Shown: in pieces, positions 3,445-64,000 of the stretch
Layout of the letters: each line of letters starts with the position of its first letter
How positions within the stretch are numbered: the first letter of the stretch is position 1
From: Symbiodinium sp. CCMP2592
Lineage: Eukaryota > Sar > Dinophyceae > Suessiales > Symbiodiniaceae
Assembly: GCA_905221615.1 (NCBI GenBank)
Contig: CAJNDT010006143.1
Location: 297,001 to 361,000 of the forward strand
Length of the DNA stretch: 64,000 nt
Direction of reading: 5' to 3'
Translations under genes and position numbers: made by a program
The notes under the pieces: generated by a model
What the model was told of the DNA's origin: nothing
Seen by the model: the letters and a program-made list of their open reading frames with translations, nothing else
Database searches by the model: none

Positions 3445-3788
3445 ACGTTAGCCTAGAAGTAGCAGTGGCAGCGGTAGTAGAGAGGAGGCGGTGGAAGCAG
3501 TAGCAGTGGCAGTGGAGCAGGACTAGGAAGAGAAGTAGGAGTGGAAGTAGGAGTAGCAGCACTAGTAGCAGTAGTAGCAGTAGTAGCAATTGCAGTAGCA
3601 GTAGCAGTAGCAGTAGAAATAGTTGTAGCTCTAGTATGTTGTAGTTGTAGTTGTTGTAGTGGATGTAGTAGTTGTAGCAGTAGCAGTAGTACTAGTACGT
3701 CGTCGTCGTAGTGGTCGTGGTAGTGGTAGTAGAAGCTGTAGTCGTAGTAGTAGTAGTAGTAGCAGCAGTAGTAGAAGTAGTAGTACTG

Positions 3789-3822
<34 letters not shown>

Positions 3823-4520
3823 CAGTAGCAGTAGCAGAAGTAGTAGTCCATTGTCGTCGTAGCAGCAACCGCAGCAGCAGCAGCAGCAGTAGCAGTAGCA
3901 GTAGCAGTAGCAGTAGCAGTAGCAGTAGCAGTAGCAGTAGCAGTAGGAGTAGGAGTAGGAGTAGTAGTAGGAGTAGGAGTAGGAGTAGCAGTAGGAGTAG
4001 GAGTAGGAGTAGGAGTAGTAGTAGGAGCAGGAGTAGGAGTAGCAGTAGTAGTAGGAGTAGGAGTAGGAGCATGAGTAGTAGCATCAGCAGTAGCAGTAGC
4101 AGTAGCAGTAGCAGTAGCAGTAGTAGTAGTAGTGGTAGTAGTAGTAGTAGTTGTTGTCGTAGTAGTGGTAGTCGTAGTGGTAGTGGTAGTAGTAGTAGGA
4201 GGAGTAGTCGTTGTAGGAGTTGGAGTAGTAGGAGTAGTAGTAGTAGTAGTAGTAGTAGTAAGTAGTAAGTAGTAAGTAGTAGATAGTAGGTAGTAGGTAG
4301 TAGGTAGTAGGTAGTAGTAGTAGGAGTAGTAGCAGTAGTAGTAGCAGCCGTAGTCGTAGTAGCAGCAGCAGTAGTAGTAGTCGTAGTCGCAGTAGTAGCA
4401 GTAGTAGCAGTAGTGGTAGCAGTAAAAACTAGGCGTGCTAGGAGTACTAGGAGCAGAAGTAGAAGTAGTAGTATTCGTAGTAGTAGTAGTAGGAGGAGGA
4501 GGAGGAGGACTAGCAGTAGC
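3445..4520. repeat. 1-kb AGT trinucleotide array
   Basis: Nearly uninterrupted AGT/GTA/TAG repeats with AGC, AGG and TCG variants over about 1.07 kb. All long ORFs here (poly-Ser/Arg on one strand, poly-Thr, Leu or Tyr on the other) come from the repeat. The repeat unit on the + strand is the reverse complement of the ACT arrays at 44.9 and 47.0 kb. Confidence 0.95.
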
Positions 4521-5040
4521 TGCACCACGGCATCTCTCGCACAAACGCTGCAGTTTTTGCATCAAACAGCCAGCTTCATTCAACATCATGGGCTGATGTT
4601 CTGATGGCTGATAGCCTTGGTTGGACGTGCAGATCTGGTTGCACAAGCCACTGCCCACCAAGTCTGACTCTTCCGAGGCTCGCATCTTCGAGCAAACTGC
4701 AGCTCCTCTCGATTATCTAGCGGCTTCAAAGCAGCCAATGCCAACCCGCTATGCAGCTTCACCGAAAGATCAACTCCTGCAGAGCGCCTTCAAGCCTTCA
4801 CCTCCGGCTCCCCTGGCCTTGGCCTCGGGATGCTCGGGGCTCCGCTTCAAACACCCGCAGAGGGCCTTATTGGCCAGCCAGGGCCAGGCCAGCACTCTCC
4901 CATTTACGCTGCAAGTGCCCCATCCACCATCGATGCCACAAACCAAGCGGCCGCCACGACGACATTTCGGGCTCCCTGGCTGTTGTGGTTCTGTCAAGCT
5001 CACGTTATTCTGTTAAGCAGATGCTGATCGCTTGTGTCCG
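4521..5040 (+). other. possible low-complexity exon, Ala/Pro/Gln/Thr-rich
   Basis: One + frame stays open from about 4780 to 5027 and reads as a Pro/Gly/Gln/Thr-rich linker (TPAEGLIGQPGPGQHSPIY and onward). It could be the 5' part of the gene whose clearer exons start near 5045. Composition alone supports this, so it stays uncertain. Confidence 0.2.
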
Positions 5041-31139: not shown

Positions 31140-31554
31140 TTGTCACACACACACATGTGAATATATTAAGCTAGATCACATATATATATATATGCCATGC
31201 GGTCTTTGGATCAGCCAAGTGGGAACCAAAAAATATGTGTATATATATATATATGTGTGTGTGTGTGCGTATCACCGCATGGTCAATGTGTTTACAATAT
31301 GTGTACACATATACACACACACATATATATATATGTATGTATACTTCTTGTTCTAAAGTTTCACACATAGAATAGCTATCTGTATACATTGGATACACTG
31401 CACTCAAGTACGTACTCGCAGTCGTACATACATGCATACATACATACATAGTTAGGTACATACATACGCACATTGCATACATGCACACATGCCTGTCTAC
31501 ATACACAATACATATCTTTCTTCATGCATACACAGACACACCCACCCAGAGACA

Positions 31555-31605
<51 letters not shown>

Positions 31606-31616
31606 ACCCAGAGACA

Positions 31617-31683
<67 letters not shown>

Positions 31684-31728
31684 ACCCACCCACCCACGCA
31701 CCCACGCACCCACGCACCCACGCACCCA

Positions 31729-31792
<64 letters not shown>

Positions 31793-31796
31793 CAGG
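31140..31796. repeat. TA, CATA, CA and ACGC microsatellite block
   Basis: TA runs (31180-31260), ACACAC/TATATA mixtures to 31350, CATA runs to 31460, then long CA runs broken by CACCCACCCAGAGA (31540-31680) and finally CACC/ACGC tetranucleotides to 31796. ORFs of Thr-His or Cys-Val repeats on either strand are artefacts. Confidence 0.95.
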
Positions 31797-32186
31797 TGCT
31801 CCCACGGAGTGAACGCCTCCTGGCCAGATGCCTCAGGTCTGTTCATCCTGCAGGCTGCCGCCATGGCAAGGCACGGCCCTGCACCGAAAGTCGATAAAGG
31901 TTTGATTCTGCGCTGCAACAGGCCCTAAAAGGCCTCACAGTCCCTGCAGGTCTGAAGTGCCTAGTGCTTAGGATGGCAGCTTCGCAAGTTTTCCGTGCTA
32001 CACCGCGGATTCAAGACTGTAGAAGCCAAGTAAGTTTAGTTGTCGCAACAGAGCAGCGAGCACGAGGAGAAAGCCACCCGAACACATCTAAAAGCTGCTG
32101 ACTTGGATTGCATCAGCACTCTAAGACTCTAAGACAGGAGCATGCCATAGCCTGCCGCATGTTTCAACAGATGTCGATGCGAAAGC

Positions 32187-42342: not shown

Positions 42343-43573
42343 CGAGGTGCCCTGGCCTCCGTTGAACTCGCGGTATCGCGGCTTGCTGCTTCTGAGAGGA
42401 GCTTTGGGATTCGTTGCCGTGCCTTGACCGAGCCGGTTAGTACAGCTACATGCTCTTGTGCCCTCCTGCTGCATTCTCTAGTGGTCTCTCCGCCAAGGTG
42501 TGGTCGTATTACGAATCCATCGCCCGGGTCCCGCTGGCTACTCTGACGCTCATCTCAAGGCCTCGCGATTGAGAAAAGAAAGCCAACCGTCCCGACGTCA
42601 CCGTATGTCACCCATGCGTCGGAAGCCATATGCTGTCCCACTGGCATATTCCAGTTTCAGAGGTATCCTTCTTCTAGCCAGTCAGCCTTGGGTTCACGTG
42701 CAGGATGTGGCAGTTGCCAGATCACAAAGGTGTAGCTTCCTGGTTCCTGACAAGGGCTTGTCGATTCGCAGGCTTCACCCGTTGCTCTCCACCGCCTTGG
42801 CCGGCGTAATCCTCGGCGAGCCCGTGAAGCCAAGGCAGCTGATAGCCCTTCTCGCGGCTGCGTTTGGCACCGCTATGCTGGTACCACGCACCGAGGACTC
42901 GGCAAGCGATTCGAATCCAGCTGCCTGTGGAAGGGAACAGCATGACAGCTCAGGAGCTGCTTTCCTCGGCTCAGAACAGCACCTACGGCTACATGTGCTG
43001 CGTGTCCGCGGCCTTCTTCACCGCTGCGGCACTGCTCTGCGTGCGAACGCTCTCAGTGTTAGATGAGGCACCACATCATGCACGAGAAGCCTTTCACTGG
43101 GGCAACTTGTGCGGCTCATTGGCGCTAGGTTTACCACATGGTGCCTCGGCATGAAAACCTAGGGGTTCCGAGTGCCCCCCCCACCCAGCCAAAGGCTGCT
43201 ATCGCGAGCTGTCACGTTGTTGGTTATTTTCTTTTTTCTGGAGCCATGGACGGTCCCCTCCTCAAGCGCGTGTTCCATGTCGAGCTCTGATTCGTTCCGA
43301 GGCTTTCTTTGGCCCAATCGAAGCGAGCTGCTCTGGATCCTGGCCACTGCTTTGTCCATGCAGTTGGCGCAGCTTGCGCTGACGCAAGTCCTGCGCAACC
43401 CTATGGTCAGCGCGGCGAAGTATTTTTTCCTTACCATCGTCTTGAACCTGGGCTTCGGCATCATAATGGGAGATCCCTGGCCTTGTGTGAGAGAGTGGCT
43501 TGGGGCAGCTGTGGTGGTGCTGAGCATGATTTTCAGTGAAGTGCCTGCAAAGCCAACCTCTGCAAAAGCTTAG
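42343..43573 (+). CDS. EamA/DMT-type transporter, multi-exon
   Basis: Pieces match the drug/metabolite transporter superfamily, ten-helix membrane carriers for metabolites. Exon at 42343-42418: RYRGLLLLRGALGFVA. Intron 42419-42497 (GT-AG). Exon 42498-42559: VWSYYESIARVPLATLTLIS. Intron 42560-42771 (212 bp, GC-AG). Exon from 42772: LHPLLSTALAGVILGEPVKP, then a helix LIALLAAAFGTAMLV. After a loop with a frame change (42895-42955) the second repeat follows: YGYMCCVSAAFFTAAALLCV. A final exon (about 43280-43573) gives LWILATALSMQLAQLALTQV, a helix YFFLTIVLNLGFGIIMG and WLGAAVVVLSMIFSE before TAG. 5' exons (possibly 42057-42130) and the 43.1-kb intron are not fixed. The loop frame change could be a small intron, an assembly indel or a disabling mutation. 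Confidence 0.7.
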
Positions 43574-46195: not shown

Positions 46196-46851
46196 TTCTT
46201 GACTCGGGACAACACCAGCAACGATGCAAGATGACAGTACAGACATGGCAGCCTCGGTAAACGAGCAGAGAGCTGCCCCTTGCCATGCCACGATTGTGAC
46301 CATACCCTGCACAAAGCGAGATGTCTAGTTAGATTGTGAGGCCATGCCTGTATTTCGCAGATTGAGTCGGGGAATGGATGGATGTTTAGGCTATACTGGG
46401 GGGTAAGGACTGCTACGTACCTCTGACTCCTTCTGCAATTTGAAGTCCGACAGCGATGTGAATTCACGTGTGAACGTGCACAACCTTGCTGCCTTTCTTA
46501 TTAACTTAATTGATCGTTGATCGTCGACCACGACTGTGCATGGAAATTTGTAACTGTAGGTGCAAAAAACGAGTAGTGGAGAAGGTAGATGGTAGTTTGT
46601 ACTGCCCATGTCTGACATGGTAGGGAGCCTCTCTTGCGGATTATGGTTGCTGCGCATTTAGGGTTGTCATCTTGGGGAACGGCTCCTTACCGTGCTAGGG
46701 GTGAGTAGCCGTGTAGTGCCGGATCAAGTGCTGTCCCCTGTCCTCGTGGCCTTACCTTCTGTTCCGCCGTTTTCTGAGAGGGGATGCACTTGTGACTTGT
46801 TGACCTTTAAGTCCCCACGGAGCTGTCATTGGCGTGCCATGTGGGTGACAA

Positions 46852-47225
<374 letters not shown>

Positions 47226-48111
47226 GCTCTCTCTGGTCGCGACGGAGTGCACCTGGCGTCCGGCAGGCTCAACCGCTGCATTCAGCAACACCATAAGTTT
47301 TTATGGTCCGAAGAAAAAGGCACCGCCCCGAGGGGCCCAGCATGCCGTATGACCCGAGCCGAAGCTCTAGCAGTCAAGATAACATTAACAGTTGGCAAGC
47401 GCATACTGTACAGAGCAAACCAACAGCCCGTTTCATCAGCATCTTTGAATAATCACTGGATGACCTTAGCAACTCAGGAATCCCAGGAAGGATACTGGTA
47501 CTGCTGGCTGCTACTGCGACTGCTACCACCACTACTACTGCTACTACTGCTACTACTACTACCTGCTTTCATGAAATGGTGCCCTGTTGGCAATTGGGGC
47601 CGCGACAGCAGTAGTGCTGATGATGCCGAGTACCATTGCGATCATCCCGGCGACGACGACCAAAACGACGGTGTTCATCATGGTGCGGTAATGGAAACTG
47701 TCGTGCTTATGCAGTAACTAACAGGGTGTTGATGACGCAGCGATGATGCCGACCATGATGGTGGCAAGATTCAGGTGGAAGTCAAGTTGAGCCGGATTGG
47801 CGCATGCCTCAGGGAAGGACAGGCACCGACGGCACCGGTTTTGGTGCCTTCGGTTTGTTGGCCACTGTGCTGCAGGCCTCTCCATCATCGAAGCCGGGCG
47901 GGATCCCGAAGAGCTAGGCACTGAGAAGCACGTGACTTTGGAGCAGTCATGCTTGGACCAGCTTGTTTGGCACACCAAGTTGCATGAGAGCAGCATGCCT
48001 GCGATGGGTTTTTCAACGCTTTATCAATCGGCGATTGATAATGCGATTCGCATTTGCAGGCTTAAGCTCCACTGCCCGCTAGCTGCAGCAGTGGTGCGCT
48101 GCACATCCAAC

Positions 48112-49978
48112 ATGGACAAGAGGCAGAAGACGGAGGCAGAGGATCACTCGGGTCATGGGCATAGTCACGGCTACGGTGATGTTCGTCGATCCGGTGGACG
48201 GCTGCCGGTCACAGTCCTCACGGGCTACCTGGGAGCAGGAAAGACCACGTTGTTGAACTACATCTTGAGAGTGCAGCACGACAAGAAGCTCGCCGTGATC
48301 GAGAACGAGGACTCGGGGATCATTTGCTTCAATTAACTAGTTGAATTAAACCCAAGTCGGCCTCCAACTTTGCCTAAAGTTTTAAAGTGGCTAAAGGCCC
48401 CAAGCCCACAGCTGCACCTGGACATTCGATTCTCGATTTCCCCCCAGATTGGCGAAGTCAGCATCGACGACGCACTCGTCGATCAGAAGCAAGTGGAAAT
48501 GGCACAGGAGCTTGTGCTGTTGGATAATGGTTGCGTCTGCTGCACAGTGCGCGGGGATTTGATTGCGTCTTTACACAAGATTGGTGAGAAATACGCTACT
48601 GGCGGAGCTCATCTCGACGGCGTGCTCATTGAGCTTACTGGGATGGCTGATCCGGCACCGGTGGTTCAGACGTTCATCGTGGACCCGCAGGTGCAGAGGC
48701 AATTCTACGTGGACAACGTGGTGACCTTGGTGGATGCCAAGCATGCCATCGACAAGCTAGACGAGAGCAAAGGCGACCCAGAAAAGGGCACTGCCTGTGC
48801 GCAGATTGCATTTTCGAGCACTGTCCTGCTGAACAAGCAACTTGGCCGAAACGATGCTGGTACCATGTGCAGATGCCCTGCAGTGTCGGGTTGTTAAATT
48901 TTAAGGCCCTCCCGTAATGCAGAGTAGCCTTGAGTGTCGGAGTGCCCGCCCCGACTTTCTGGATCGTCCACCCCAGCAGTACTAGGCCCCAAGTGCTCAC
49001 ATCCCGGAAGTTTTTGCAGAGCATCCATCCAGCAGGGTATGCTTAGCAGAGTCTACTTGGAGTGCCCACCACAAGACCACCCTCCAAGTATGCTGCCGTG
49101 AACCCTACACAGTTAAGTACCCAGTACAGAATGCTGCCCCGGCAGCTGTTGTTTTCGCCTGGGGCATGTTCGAGTTGGAAGCGAATATGTTGATTTTGCA
49201 TTCGTGTCGACATTTCTTGGAGACTGCGAGCCAGTGCATGCAGAGTCGAAGCACGTAATTCAGAGAGTTTGGGTCCAGGATTGATCTGGTGGATGATGCA
49301 CACCTGAAGAAGGTGGAGGCGCGCATTAAGGAGCTTAACGGCGCAGCCGAGATTCTCAGGTGCCAGCAATCGCAGGCTCCAATGGACAAGCTGTTTAACG
49401 TCGGCGCCTTCAATTTGGAGAGGGTGCTGGACGAGCAGTACATGGATGAATCGGAGTTCCGGCAGTTCTACAAGCCTAAGATGGACCGTTCTGTCTCAAA
49501 CGTTGGCATTCGCTGTGAAGGAGCCGTGCAGATGTTCGCCATCCAGCGATTTTTGGACCAGTACCTAGGGCAAGAGGAAACAGCGAAGGATTTCCTGCGT
49601 GTCAAGGCAGTTTTGAACATCGCCGGCAGTGACAAAAAGTTTGTGCTACAGTGTGTTCATATGCTCCGAAATCAGGGCTTTACCAAGCCATGGGGCCCGG
49701 GAGAAAAGCGTGAGAATAAAATCATCTTCATTGGCCGTAGCATGCAGCCACGGCGGCCGGAGCTCAATGAAGGCTTCCAGGCTTGCTTAGTGACCAAGCC
49801 CTTACGCTTCCCAGTGGGCACGCCAATCCGGGCCAAGACAGGTGCAGGTCCCCATGACTGGGAGCCTGGCGTGGTGCTGGCACAGTGGGATGAATGCAAC
49901 GCGTACCGCTTGCAGTTGCGGAGTGGCGACCAAGTCCATGCGCCCATGGACATGGATTGCTTCGTGATGAAGGCCTGA
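48112..49978 (+). CDS. CobW/COG0523 GTPase, three exons
   Basis: G3E P-loop GTPase thought to load or traffic metals (zinc or cobalt) into client proteins. Exons 48112-48309, 48448-48836 and 49279-49978 join into 428 residues. Seen: His-rich N-terminus HSGHGHSHG (residues 12-20), Walker A GYLGAGKT (38-45), '[17 protein letters not shown]' switch region, the metal-binding CVCC (95-98) in the family block [20 protein letters not shown], and NKID (195-198) for guanine. A CobW C-terminal domain follows ([17 protein letters not shown]). The last ~65 residues ([11 protein letters not shown]..., [28 protein letters not shown]) lie beyond the usual CobW end and resemble a module I recall at the ends of many dinoflagellate proteins. 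The start is the first in-frame ATG before the His-rich stretch. All joins are phase-consistent. Confidence 0.92.
48310..48447 (+). other. GA-AG intron 1 of the CobW gene
   Basis: 138 bp. Donor AACGAG|GACTC, acceptor CCCCCAG|ATTGG, phase 0. The join gives [13 protein letters not shown], the conserved block, so the GA donor is well supported by family alignment. Confidence 0.85.
48837..49278 (+). other. GC-AG intron 2 of the CobW gene
   Basis: 442 bp. Donor AACAA|GCAAC, acceptor GTCCAG|GATTG, phase 2. The join gives LLNKIDLVDD, the expected G4 guanine motif. Confidence 0.85.
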
Positions 49979-62773: not shown

Positions 62774-63310
62774 CAAGGTGTACAAGAACAACACATAGAT
62801 GTATAGTTGCGTGTGTTCGTGTACACACGTGTATCATATACTGACCATAACAATCAGCATGTAATCATAATCATAGTTAACATCATGCTCGCAATGAGAA
62901 ACTAGCACGTCTTTTTACAGGAAGGGTAGTACAAATAGCTCTATTCTGTACATACTGACTTACCTACCGACACACACGCGCACTTTTACATATGAATATG
63001 CATATCTATATATATATATACTATCATATGCATACACATAAAAATCTGCATGTGCATATGCATAGACAGGCCTTTACCTACATGAGCCTTTATGTACCTA
63101 TTATTAAGTGTATGTGTATGATTCGCGGCAACTGAAGCATGCAGGGCAGATGCACCGTCAATGTTGCTGGACCGTCCTAGCCCGCCGCTTGAGCAGCTTC
63201 AACAGCAGACGGTACGTCGAAGTGCGGGATGTAGCGGACAAGCTCCGAAAGTCGGAAGACTGAAGTGCCTAGCCGTTGTGGTTCAACCATCCCTACCGAA
63301 AGTGTAGACC
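62774..63310. other. AT-rich intergenic stretch with TA/CATA runs
   Basis: TATATATA near 63008-63020 and CATATGCAT-like repeats. No coding signal; separates the LPMO-like gene from the upstream exons. Confidence 0.5.
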
Positions 63311-63328: not shown

Positions 63329-64000
63329 ATGTGTTCCTTCCGTGCGTTGGTGAATCTGGCGGCAGTGGCCCTTGCAGCGGGGCATGGCCAGCTGACGATG
63401 CCTTTGGTTCGAGTAGACTCAGTGGGCCGCCGGGAAAGCCATGAACAAAGGGCCCCTGTCTACACGTTGGATGGCAATCGGGGAGGCTACTCTCCCACAA
63501 GCATGCGATGCCACGATTTCAACCCAGATTCAGACGGAGCGAAGACCACTTTGCAAGCCGGGTCCTCCTTTGATGTGACCTGGACCATGGAAGCCGGACA
63601 CCCCGGCGACTGCTACTTCTATGTGAGTTACGACCCAGATCCGAGCAACGCGGTGAACTTCTTCAAGATTGCCGCAATCCCTGGGTGTGGCGCACCGGAT
63701 GGCCTGAACATCCCCTCCTCTGTCAGCACTTCAGTTCTCCTTCCGGAAGAGTTGCCGGCCTGTGAGCACTGCGTGCTTCGTTGGGAATGGACGGGACATC
63801 AGCAGGTGGGAGTTTCCGAAAACAGGGGACCCTAATATAGTATATTACAGTAAATAGTAGGATCCCCATTATAAGGACCCCCAAGTAAGGTACCCCTATT
63901 TTCGGAAACTCCCAGGTGGTCAACATCGAATTCTATGTGCAGTGTGCGGACATCAAGATCGCCAGCAGTGCTCAGCCTGTGCTGCCCTCGCCAGTGACAC
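63329..64000 (+). CDS. LPMO / chitin-binding type-4 protein (5' part)
   Basis: Copper lytic polysaccharide monooxygenases cut chitin or cellulose oxidatively outside the cell. ATG at 63329 gives an 18-residue signal peptide (FRALVNLAAVALAAG) followed by His19, so cleavage would leave an N-terminal His, as needed for the copper 'histidine brace'. The second His is probably H91 (EAGHPGDCYFYVSYD). Near the end of the domain LRWEWTGHQQ joins VVNIEFYVQCADIKI after removal of intron 63806-63915; the Phe/Tyr here fits the axial ligand. Cys pairs (C61, C95, GCG, ACEHC, QCAD) suit a secreted fold. The frame is open to the window edge, so the gene is cut off. The exact AA family is not assigned. Confidence 0.8.
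63806..63915 (+). mobile_element. introner-like MITE acting as an intron
   Basis: A 106-bp element (63808-63913) with terminal inverted repeats: GGGAGTTTCCGAAAACAGGG at the left, and the right end is its reverse complement with one change (C to T). AGGT flanks both ends (63804-63807 and 63914-63917) as a target-site duplication. The spliced intron is 63806-63915 (110 bp): CAG|GTGGGAG ... CTCCCAG|GTGG. Donor GT comes from the left copy of AGGT and acceptor AG from the right copy, so the protein frame is unchanged (HQQ-VVNIEF). If unspliced, the frame reads VGVSENRGP and stops, a tail I recall in symbiodiniacean predicted proteins. No transposase inside; non-autonomous. Confidence 0.88.

Follow-up and report, generated by a model that had tools for sequence, protein, structure and literature searches.

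A transposable element as a probable, exactly removable intron in an LPMO-like gene of Symbiodinium, at an intron position shared with a paralogue

Introduction

Introners in Symbiodinium microadriaticum carry terminal inverted repeats (TIRs) and 4-bp target duplications (Gozashti et al. 2022, PMC9860276); according to the portions of that study cited here, the recruitment of splice sites from the duplication occurs in several forms, and introner copies are gene-enriched in 161 of the 175 introner-bearing genomes. The subject of the present work is a comparable locus in Symbiodinium sp. CCMP2592, namely a 106-bp element inside an LPMO-like gene near the end of a 64,000-nucleotide stretch of contig CAJNDT010006143.1 (positions 297,001 to 361,000, hereafter ‘the window’). 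It is proposed with good confidence that a miniature inverted-repeat transposable element (MITE) inserted into the uninterrupted coding sequence of this gene, that its AGGT duplication turned it into an exactly removable intron, and that the gene is most likely a retrocopy.

The window element resembles the S. microadriaticum introners (PMC9860276, as presented in its Fig. 2B) in being short, in having TIRs and a 4-bp duplication and in its predicted role, in a dinoflagellate gene, as a spliceosomal intron; the example depicted there, of family 1, spans 86725-86839 (115 bp) of scaffold LSRX01000224.1, against 110 bp for the window intron. With the duplication set as AGGT, the window element receives both the AG and the GT from the duplication, whereas the S. 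microadriaticum introner is parsed differently; the latter may belong to the same family under another parsing, the comparison being one of descriptions and not of sequences. The Florenciella introners (Fig. 2E of the same study), which belong to another lineage, are alike by description in that both splice sites come from the place of insertion, the element itself containing neither, and, again by description, the dinoflagellate introners of Roy et al. 2023 (as related in the relevant part of PMC11453091) are alike in the recent creation of introns by many families. In the sections concerned of the work on Amoebophrya (Farhat et al. 2021, PMC7789003), introner elements bear inverted repeats (8-20 nt) and, at the intron ends, direct repeats (3-5 nt), with a hairpin joining these ends; the window element has such repeats likewise and is predicted to form the hairpin. 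The Amoebophrya elements are, however, defined among introns with non-canonical splice sites, whereas the window intron is of the GT-AG type.

New introns at positions occupied elsewhere by unrelated introns have also been described in the parts of the literature cited: in fungi they are introner-like elements (PMC4457414), in populations of Daphnia they make up 43 of 90 new introns (PMC4202315), and in fish slc26 genes some are transposon-like (PMC12357937). What these cases have in common with the window is position convergence, an idea already theirs, and those of fungi and fish are repeat- or transposon-like; as described in these sources, none is a MITE with TIRs and target duplication that struck, inside a single genome, the exon junction of a paralogue free of introns. 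Retrogenes are common in dinoflagellates and some carry introns, either novel or inherited, according to the sections used of PMC6050394 and PMC12014239. Within the literature searched, which did not include Roy 2023 and Huff 2016, the available text described no retrocopy that had recovered an intron at its former junction via a MITE with TIRs and target duplication; when article texts were searched for the TIR and for the read-through peptide, one unrelated paper was returned, for a 13-base string. New here are the targeting of ATAT by the family and the intron position shared with a paralogue, the type of element being already known.

The element and its predicted splicing

The original prediction, made from the sequence of the window, placed a 106-bp element with 20-bp TIRs between two copies of AGGT, and the borders are those found here (Table 1). 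The length of the TIRs also holds, with one mismatch to be admitted: pairing is complete over the first bases (15/15) and reaches 19/20 over 20, and looser matching extends the arms to 27 nt at 89%. The predicted 4-bp duplication is ambiguous in the window copy considered alone. The direct repeat that flanks it is 7 bp long (CAGGTGG, offset 110) and one copy therefore cannot fix the length of the duplication, symmetrical ends being compatible with 4 or 6 bp and, in our own reading, likewise with 2 bp. The family copies described below settle the length at 4 bp, a perfect 4-bp duplication being present in 33 of 50 and at least three of the four bases matching in 44.

The combination of a TIR match of at least 16/20 with a 4-bp duplication occurs at a single place in the window, which is this element (19/20). 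When the window was shuffled with a first-order Markov model, 8 of 100 shuffles contained such a place, none exceeding 16/20; the arrangement is not due to chance. Short length, TIRs and a duplication of fixed length characterize the element as a MITE. The 110-nt intron is predicted to fold into a long hairpin that pairs both ends (-43.3 kcal/mol, z -6.24). No further family member was found within the window by blastn and nhmmer (four short blastn matches, E ≥0.32), an Rfam search gave no match, and the exact element patterns were found zero times in viral contigs and prokaryote genome contigs, as expected for a eukaryotic element. A branch-point motif near the 3′ end was considered and dropped, as it is not kept in the window copy and in the coding copies inspected.

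Removal of GT63806..AG63915 (110 bp, phase 0) joins CAG to GTG and restores the frame, in keeping with the exact splicing that had been predicted. The resulting frame comprises 363 codons, from ATG 63329 to the stop at 64530, with no second interruption, whereas the unspliced reading meets a stop at the 10th codon after the insertion point and contains four stops in the stretch read. The part of the joined protein held by the window (187 aa) matches two Pfam families over the join, AA9 with 42.5 bits and LPMO_10 with 30.4; for AA9, exon 1 alone scores 24.5 bits and the unspliced form 24.2, both below the cut-off of 27.8. Matches in the PDB to AA11 and AA9 enzymes are weak (best E 0.00025) and run over the join into the motif FYVQCA. 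The tyrosine of this motif is presumably the axial copper-site residue of LPMOs, in which case a retained element would cut the protein short of a complete active site. The cell can thus very probably cut the element out of the RNA exactly, making a new intron, and the reading frame and the homology together suggest that splicing does take place in cells. The introner reading, in which a MITE would have obtained both of its splice sites from the target duplication, is supported by this arrangement.

Table 1. Positions of the features discussed; window coordinates unless a contig is given
Feature	Position	Strand	Basis and remarks
MITE/introner copy, 106 bp	63808..63913	+	Sequence, scans for TIR and target duplication; many family copies in genome
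Left TIR	63808..63827	+	19/20 against right TIR, first 15 perfect
Right TIR	63894..63913	-	19/20 against left TIR
Left AGGT target duplication copy	63804..63807	+	GT is predicted 5′ splice site; 4-bp length from family
Right AGGT target duplication copy	63914..63917	+	AG is predicted 3′ splice site; 4-bp length from family
Predicted GT-AG intron, 110 bp, phase 0	63806..63915	+	Reading frame and Pfam gain on removal
LPMO-like gene, exon 1, codons 1-159	63329..63805	+	Reading frame, Pfam
LPMO-like gene, exon 2	63916..64000, on past window end to stop at window-coordinate 64530	+	Adjoining sequence (L048)
Weak relic-like match to dinoflagellate spliced leader, 15/21	63267..63287	+	About 40-60 bp before ATG
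GC-AG intron of paralogue, 55 bp	C539:126300-126354 (L119 116-170)		Same codon boundary as window element

The family and its targets

The genome searched comprises 1.098 Gb in 5,383 contigs. A similarity search with the element scored 40 matches out of 2,784 first-look candidates, and copies having both 15-bp ends intact and 60-90 bases apart number at least 4,442 genome-wide, with none for the reversed-pattern control, which bears out the high copy number that had been suspected. These many near-identical copies at unrelated loci are what characterizes an introner family. The consensus, built from 90 copies, is 102 bp long; the mean divergence is 6.0% in a target-unbiased set of 50 copies, all read on contigs C1-C11, and the window copy lies 7.9% from the consensus. 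Identical flanks were seen around two copies on different contigs (L020 on C2068 and L022 on C1696), which indicates that some stretches of the assembly are duplicated haplotypes or segmental copies of recent date and that the counts are not all independent insertions.

Among the 33 perfect duplications of this set the successive target bases are A (29/33), T (25/33), A (22/33) and T (31/33), and AGGT occurs in none of the 50 copies. Genome-wide counts, all from a single form of the pattern (12-bp ends together with the 4-bp duplication), give 1,678 copies at ATAT, 67 at AGGT, 10 at ACGT and 5 at AGCT. The usual target of the family is ATAT, and the family is not AGGT-specific. By reasoning, only AGGT, AGGC or AGGA duplications can yield a seamless dinoflagellate intron and, given a target of the A..T form, AGGT is the sole duplication that places AG before, and GT after, one and the same point. 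Under independence of target positions 2 and 3, 14 AGGT copies (raw) or 20 (background-corrected) would be expected, against the 67 seen; the expectation rises to 29 or 42 when upper limits are used for the two small controls. Over AGCT the background-corrected excess is 8-fold (p 3e-9). The excess of AGGT is suggestive. Gene enrichment of the family as a whole looks unlikely because AGGT is missing from the 50 target-unbiased copies, and the introns seem to be those few insertions of a general MITE that can be spliced, and not the work of an element specialized for making introns. By eye, the orientation of the 67 AGGT copies is about even (34 versus 33); yet the five copies whose unspliced readings were inspected are oriented as the window copy is, a number too small for a conclusion.

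The original prediction had called for a genome search with the TIR and a tabulation of AGGT flanks, and had proposed the introner mechanism known from other algae. The tabulation did reveal AGGT copies, among a dominant ATAT population. The mechanism agrees with the sequence, with the thousands of copies and with two further AGGT copies in coding sequence described below, but must be confined to an intron-forming minority of a family that targets ATAT. The read-through peptide VGVSENRGP, which had been called familiar from symbiodiniacean protein predictions, recurs in one other copy of the same genome (L105).

Other AGGT copies in coding sequence

The joined flanks of 27 AGGT copies were examined, of which 23 belong to the 67 and four lie outside them because of end mismatches; 20 of the first 22 places were taken, one near-duplicate and one already read being skipped, and L041 and L043 were omitted from the joined-frame test for their imperfect duplications. 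In L025, the element stands at the join within motif V of a DEAD-box helicase (ATDVASR|GLDI). There, Helicase_C scores 91.2 bits for the joined form against 33 for the part before the join (Pfam), and a PDB match crosses the join ungapped (E 5e-28). In L105, an FKBP gene is interrupted at GLQYK|VLQEGSG, with an ungapped PDB match across the join (E 3.6e-7); its Pfam match, FKBP_N, is below cut-off and is the lone match among nine joined AGGT frames scanned. Several family copies would therefore form predicted introns in different genes (LPMO-like, DEAD-box helicase and FKBP). L107 has an open joined frame with no match in Pfam or the PDB, and the joined frames of L033, L037 and L044, in their longer form, have no Pfam match. 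Unspliced readings contain stops in all five copies considered (the window copy, L025, L105, L107 and L110, the last being taken up below).

A frame open over 204 bases across the join was found in 10/27 sense and 8/27 antisense readings and in 15/100 control strands (Fisher, sense versus control p 0.015, antisense versus control p 0.09). Ten of the 16 open control frames were scanned in Pfam: nine were matchless and one had two sub-cut-off matches. In the PDB, three of four control frames had best E values of 0.49, 0.23 and 0.25 and the fourth no match. One control, L085 (C3:1030021-1032121, ATAT target), shows a weak WD-repeat-like similarity in its joined frame on the minus strand, with sub-standard values in both Pfam (E 0.016) and the PDB (E 0.23).

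An intron-rich paralogue

A search of the genome with the LPMO-like protein led to one other contig, C539, with exon-sized matches at 125153-126733 and a short one at 159968; the stretch 126100-126605 was read. Once spliced, the paralogue shares 212 of 241 bases (88%) with the window coding sequence in a gapless alignment. At the exact point of insertion in the window, CATCAGCAG|GTGGTC, the paralogue is interrupted by a GC-AG intron of 55 bp, in which no resemblance to the window element could be detected (2/20 TIR matches). Two GA-AG introns of the paralogue, one of 68 bp located 42 bases downstream of the shared site and one of 66 bp upstream of it, have no counterpart in the window gene; the exon-sized matches hint at further introns. 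The window coding sequence contains three sense AGGT sites. The element sits in the first; at the second, which follows codon 204, the alignment with the paralogue ends in AAG and the paralogue goes on with GC, as if a further intron began there. AGGT sites thus coincide with paralogue junctions in two of three cases, the second having been read on its left side only. The window gene is without the parental-type introns, as a retrogene would be: the 66-bp and 68-bp introns are missing and the MITE stands in place of the 55-bp one.

Origin of the intron

The proposed course of events is as follows. A non-autonomous cut-and-paste DNA transposon, the MITE with the 102-bp consensus, would have been moved by a transposase acting in trans and would have entered the LPMO-like gene at ...CATCAGC-AGGT-GGTCAAC..., a site that must have been uninterrupted at that time because AGGT abuts exon on both sides. 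Duplication of AGGT would have set a GT at the start of the insert and an AG at its end, and the spliceosome, by removing GT-element-AG, would restore the original mRNA exactly. The window gene itself would most likely be a copy, derived from spliced mRNA, of an intron-rich gene whose introns were thereby lost, and the insertion would have survived at an old exon junction because such junctions keep AG|GT. The choice lies between the regain of an intron by a retrocopy where one had stood before and parallel intron gain. The former may be generalized as an ‘intron memory’, to which we would give an even chance: copies derived from spliced mRNA would keep AG|GT scars, and a MITE that targets ATAT would be retained in coding DNA chiefly at such scars.

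Several observations weigh against this account. The match to the spliced leader (compared in the form given in PMC12014239 and PMC6050394) is weak, since 0.65% of random 200-bp stretches do equally well at 15/21, a second site in the window ties with it, and it had been seen by eye before the test. The background-corrected excess of AGGT over ACGT is 1.4-fold, which falls short of significance (p 0.20). Only 3 of the 27 AGGT copies, namely those in the window LPMO-like gene, L025 and L105, have solid homology across the join; the resemblance of L110 to a KCNH-type channel (PDB E 0.086) is not counted, being barely better than a control at E 0.23. Open frames are no more frequent in the sense than in the antisense direction (p 0.77).

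Parallel gain without prior loss, in which the window gene would always have been intron-poor and the paralogue would have acquired its introns later, both genes using the same AG|GT site, is possible but somewhat doubtful. It is in line with the high rates of intron gain in dinoflagellates (PMC11453091, in the part cited) and with the frequency of parallel gains in Daphnia, as given for the 43 of 90 new introns mentioned above (PMC4202315); moreover, the two introns at the shared site have no detectable common sequence, and either direction of change would be compatible with the unrooted pair of genes. The distribution of introns is nevertheless the pattern of a retrocopy, with three introns read in the paralogue and others suggested against the MITE alone in the window gene, and the weak relic-like leader sequence upstream of the window gene may also speak for a retrocopy.

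That the LPMO-like copy is simply a disabled gene, broken by the premature stop of an unspliced element and flanked by AGGT through coincidence, would suit the four stops of the unspliced reading, the first of them at the 10th codon, and the fact that the majority of family copies are not at AGGT. This is improbable: the window copy happens to have one of the few duplications able to give a seamless intron, its two flanking exons form an open frame of 363 codons although the element has come to differ by 7.9% from the consensus, and the same arrangement is predicted again in the helicase and FKBP genes.

Insertion of the element into an ancestral intron, which it then replaced by deletion or gene conversion, would explain the intron position common to both paralogues as inherited, yet it is very unlikely, given that the perfect AGGT duplication touches exon sequence directly at either end, leaving no trace of an older intron, and that the family duplication is 4 bp, which makes uninterrupted exon the target on arrival. 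A specialized introner, whose transposase would prefer AGGT as a proto-splice site, could account for the 67 AGGT against 5 AGCT copies and is hardly to be credited beside 1,678 copies at ATAT and an ATAT-like target-unbiased sample without AGGT. Insertion of a general MITE into uninterrupted coding sequence, most likely that of a retrocopy, remains the preferred interpretation.

Other features of the window

Non-canonical splice sites of the GA-AG and GC-AG type are common in Symbiodiniaceae, according to the passages used of PMC11453091. In the window, a complete cobW/YjiA-like GTPase gene with three exons lies at 48112-49978 (+), and its two predicted introns, GA-AG at 48310-48447 and GC-AG at 48837-49278, are both needed for read-through. 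Together with the GC-AG and GA-AG introns of the LPMO paralogue, they make the genome appear dinoflagellate-like. The cobW introns were also considered as obvious introners and rejected as such, their best TIR matches being 12/20 and 10/20. Ten window frames scanned in Pfam gave a single weak match, an EamA-transporter similarity at 42482-43066 (+) with E 0.0028, below cut-off. Long low-complexity simple repeats open spurious reading frames at 31376-31928, 3453-4712 and 46662-47717.

Implications for intron gain

The locus offers a birth of an intron that can be dissected, since the donor family, the target, the duplication and an intron-bearing paralogue are all present within one genome. It also separates two ideas on introners, namely the preference of a transposase for splice-like sites and the survival of the few insertions that splice; the ATAT-dominated targets of the family favour survival over transposase preference. 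The exact coincidence with an unrelated intron of a paralogue is one more warning that a conserved intron position is weak evidence of homology in introner-rich lineages. If intron memory is true, introns would reappear where they had been lost, and a position shared between paralogues need not mean shared ancestry.
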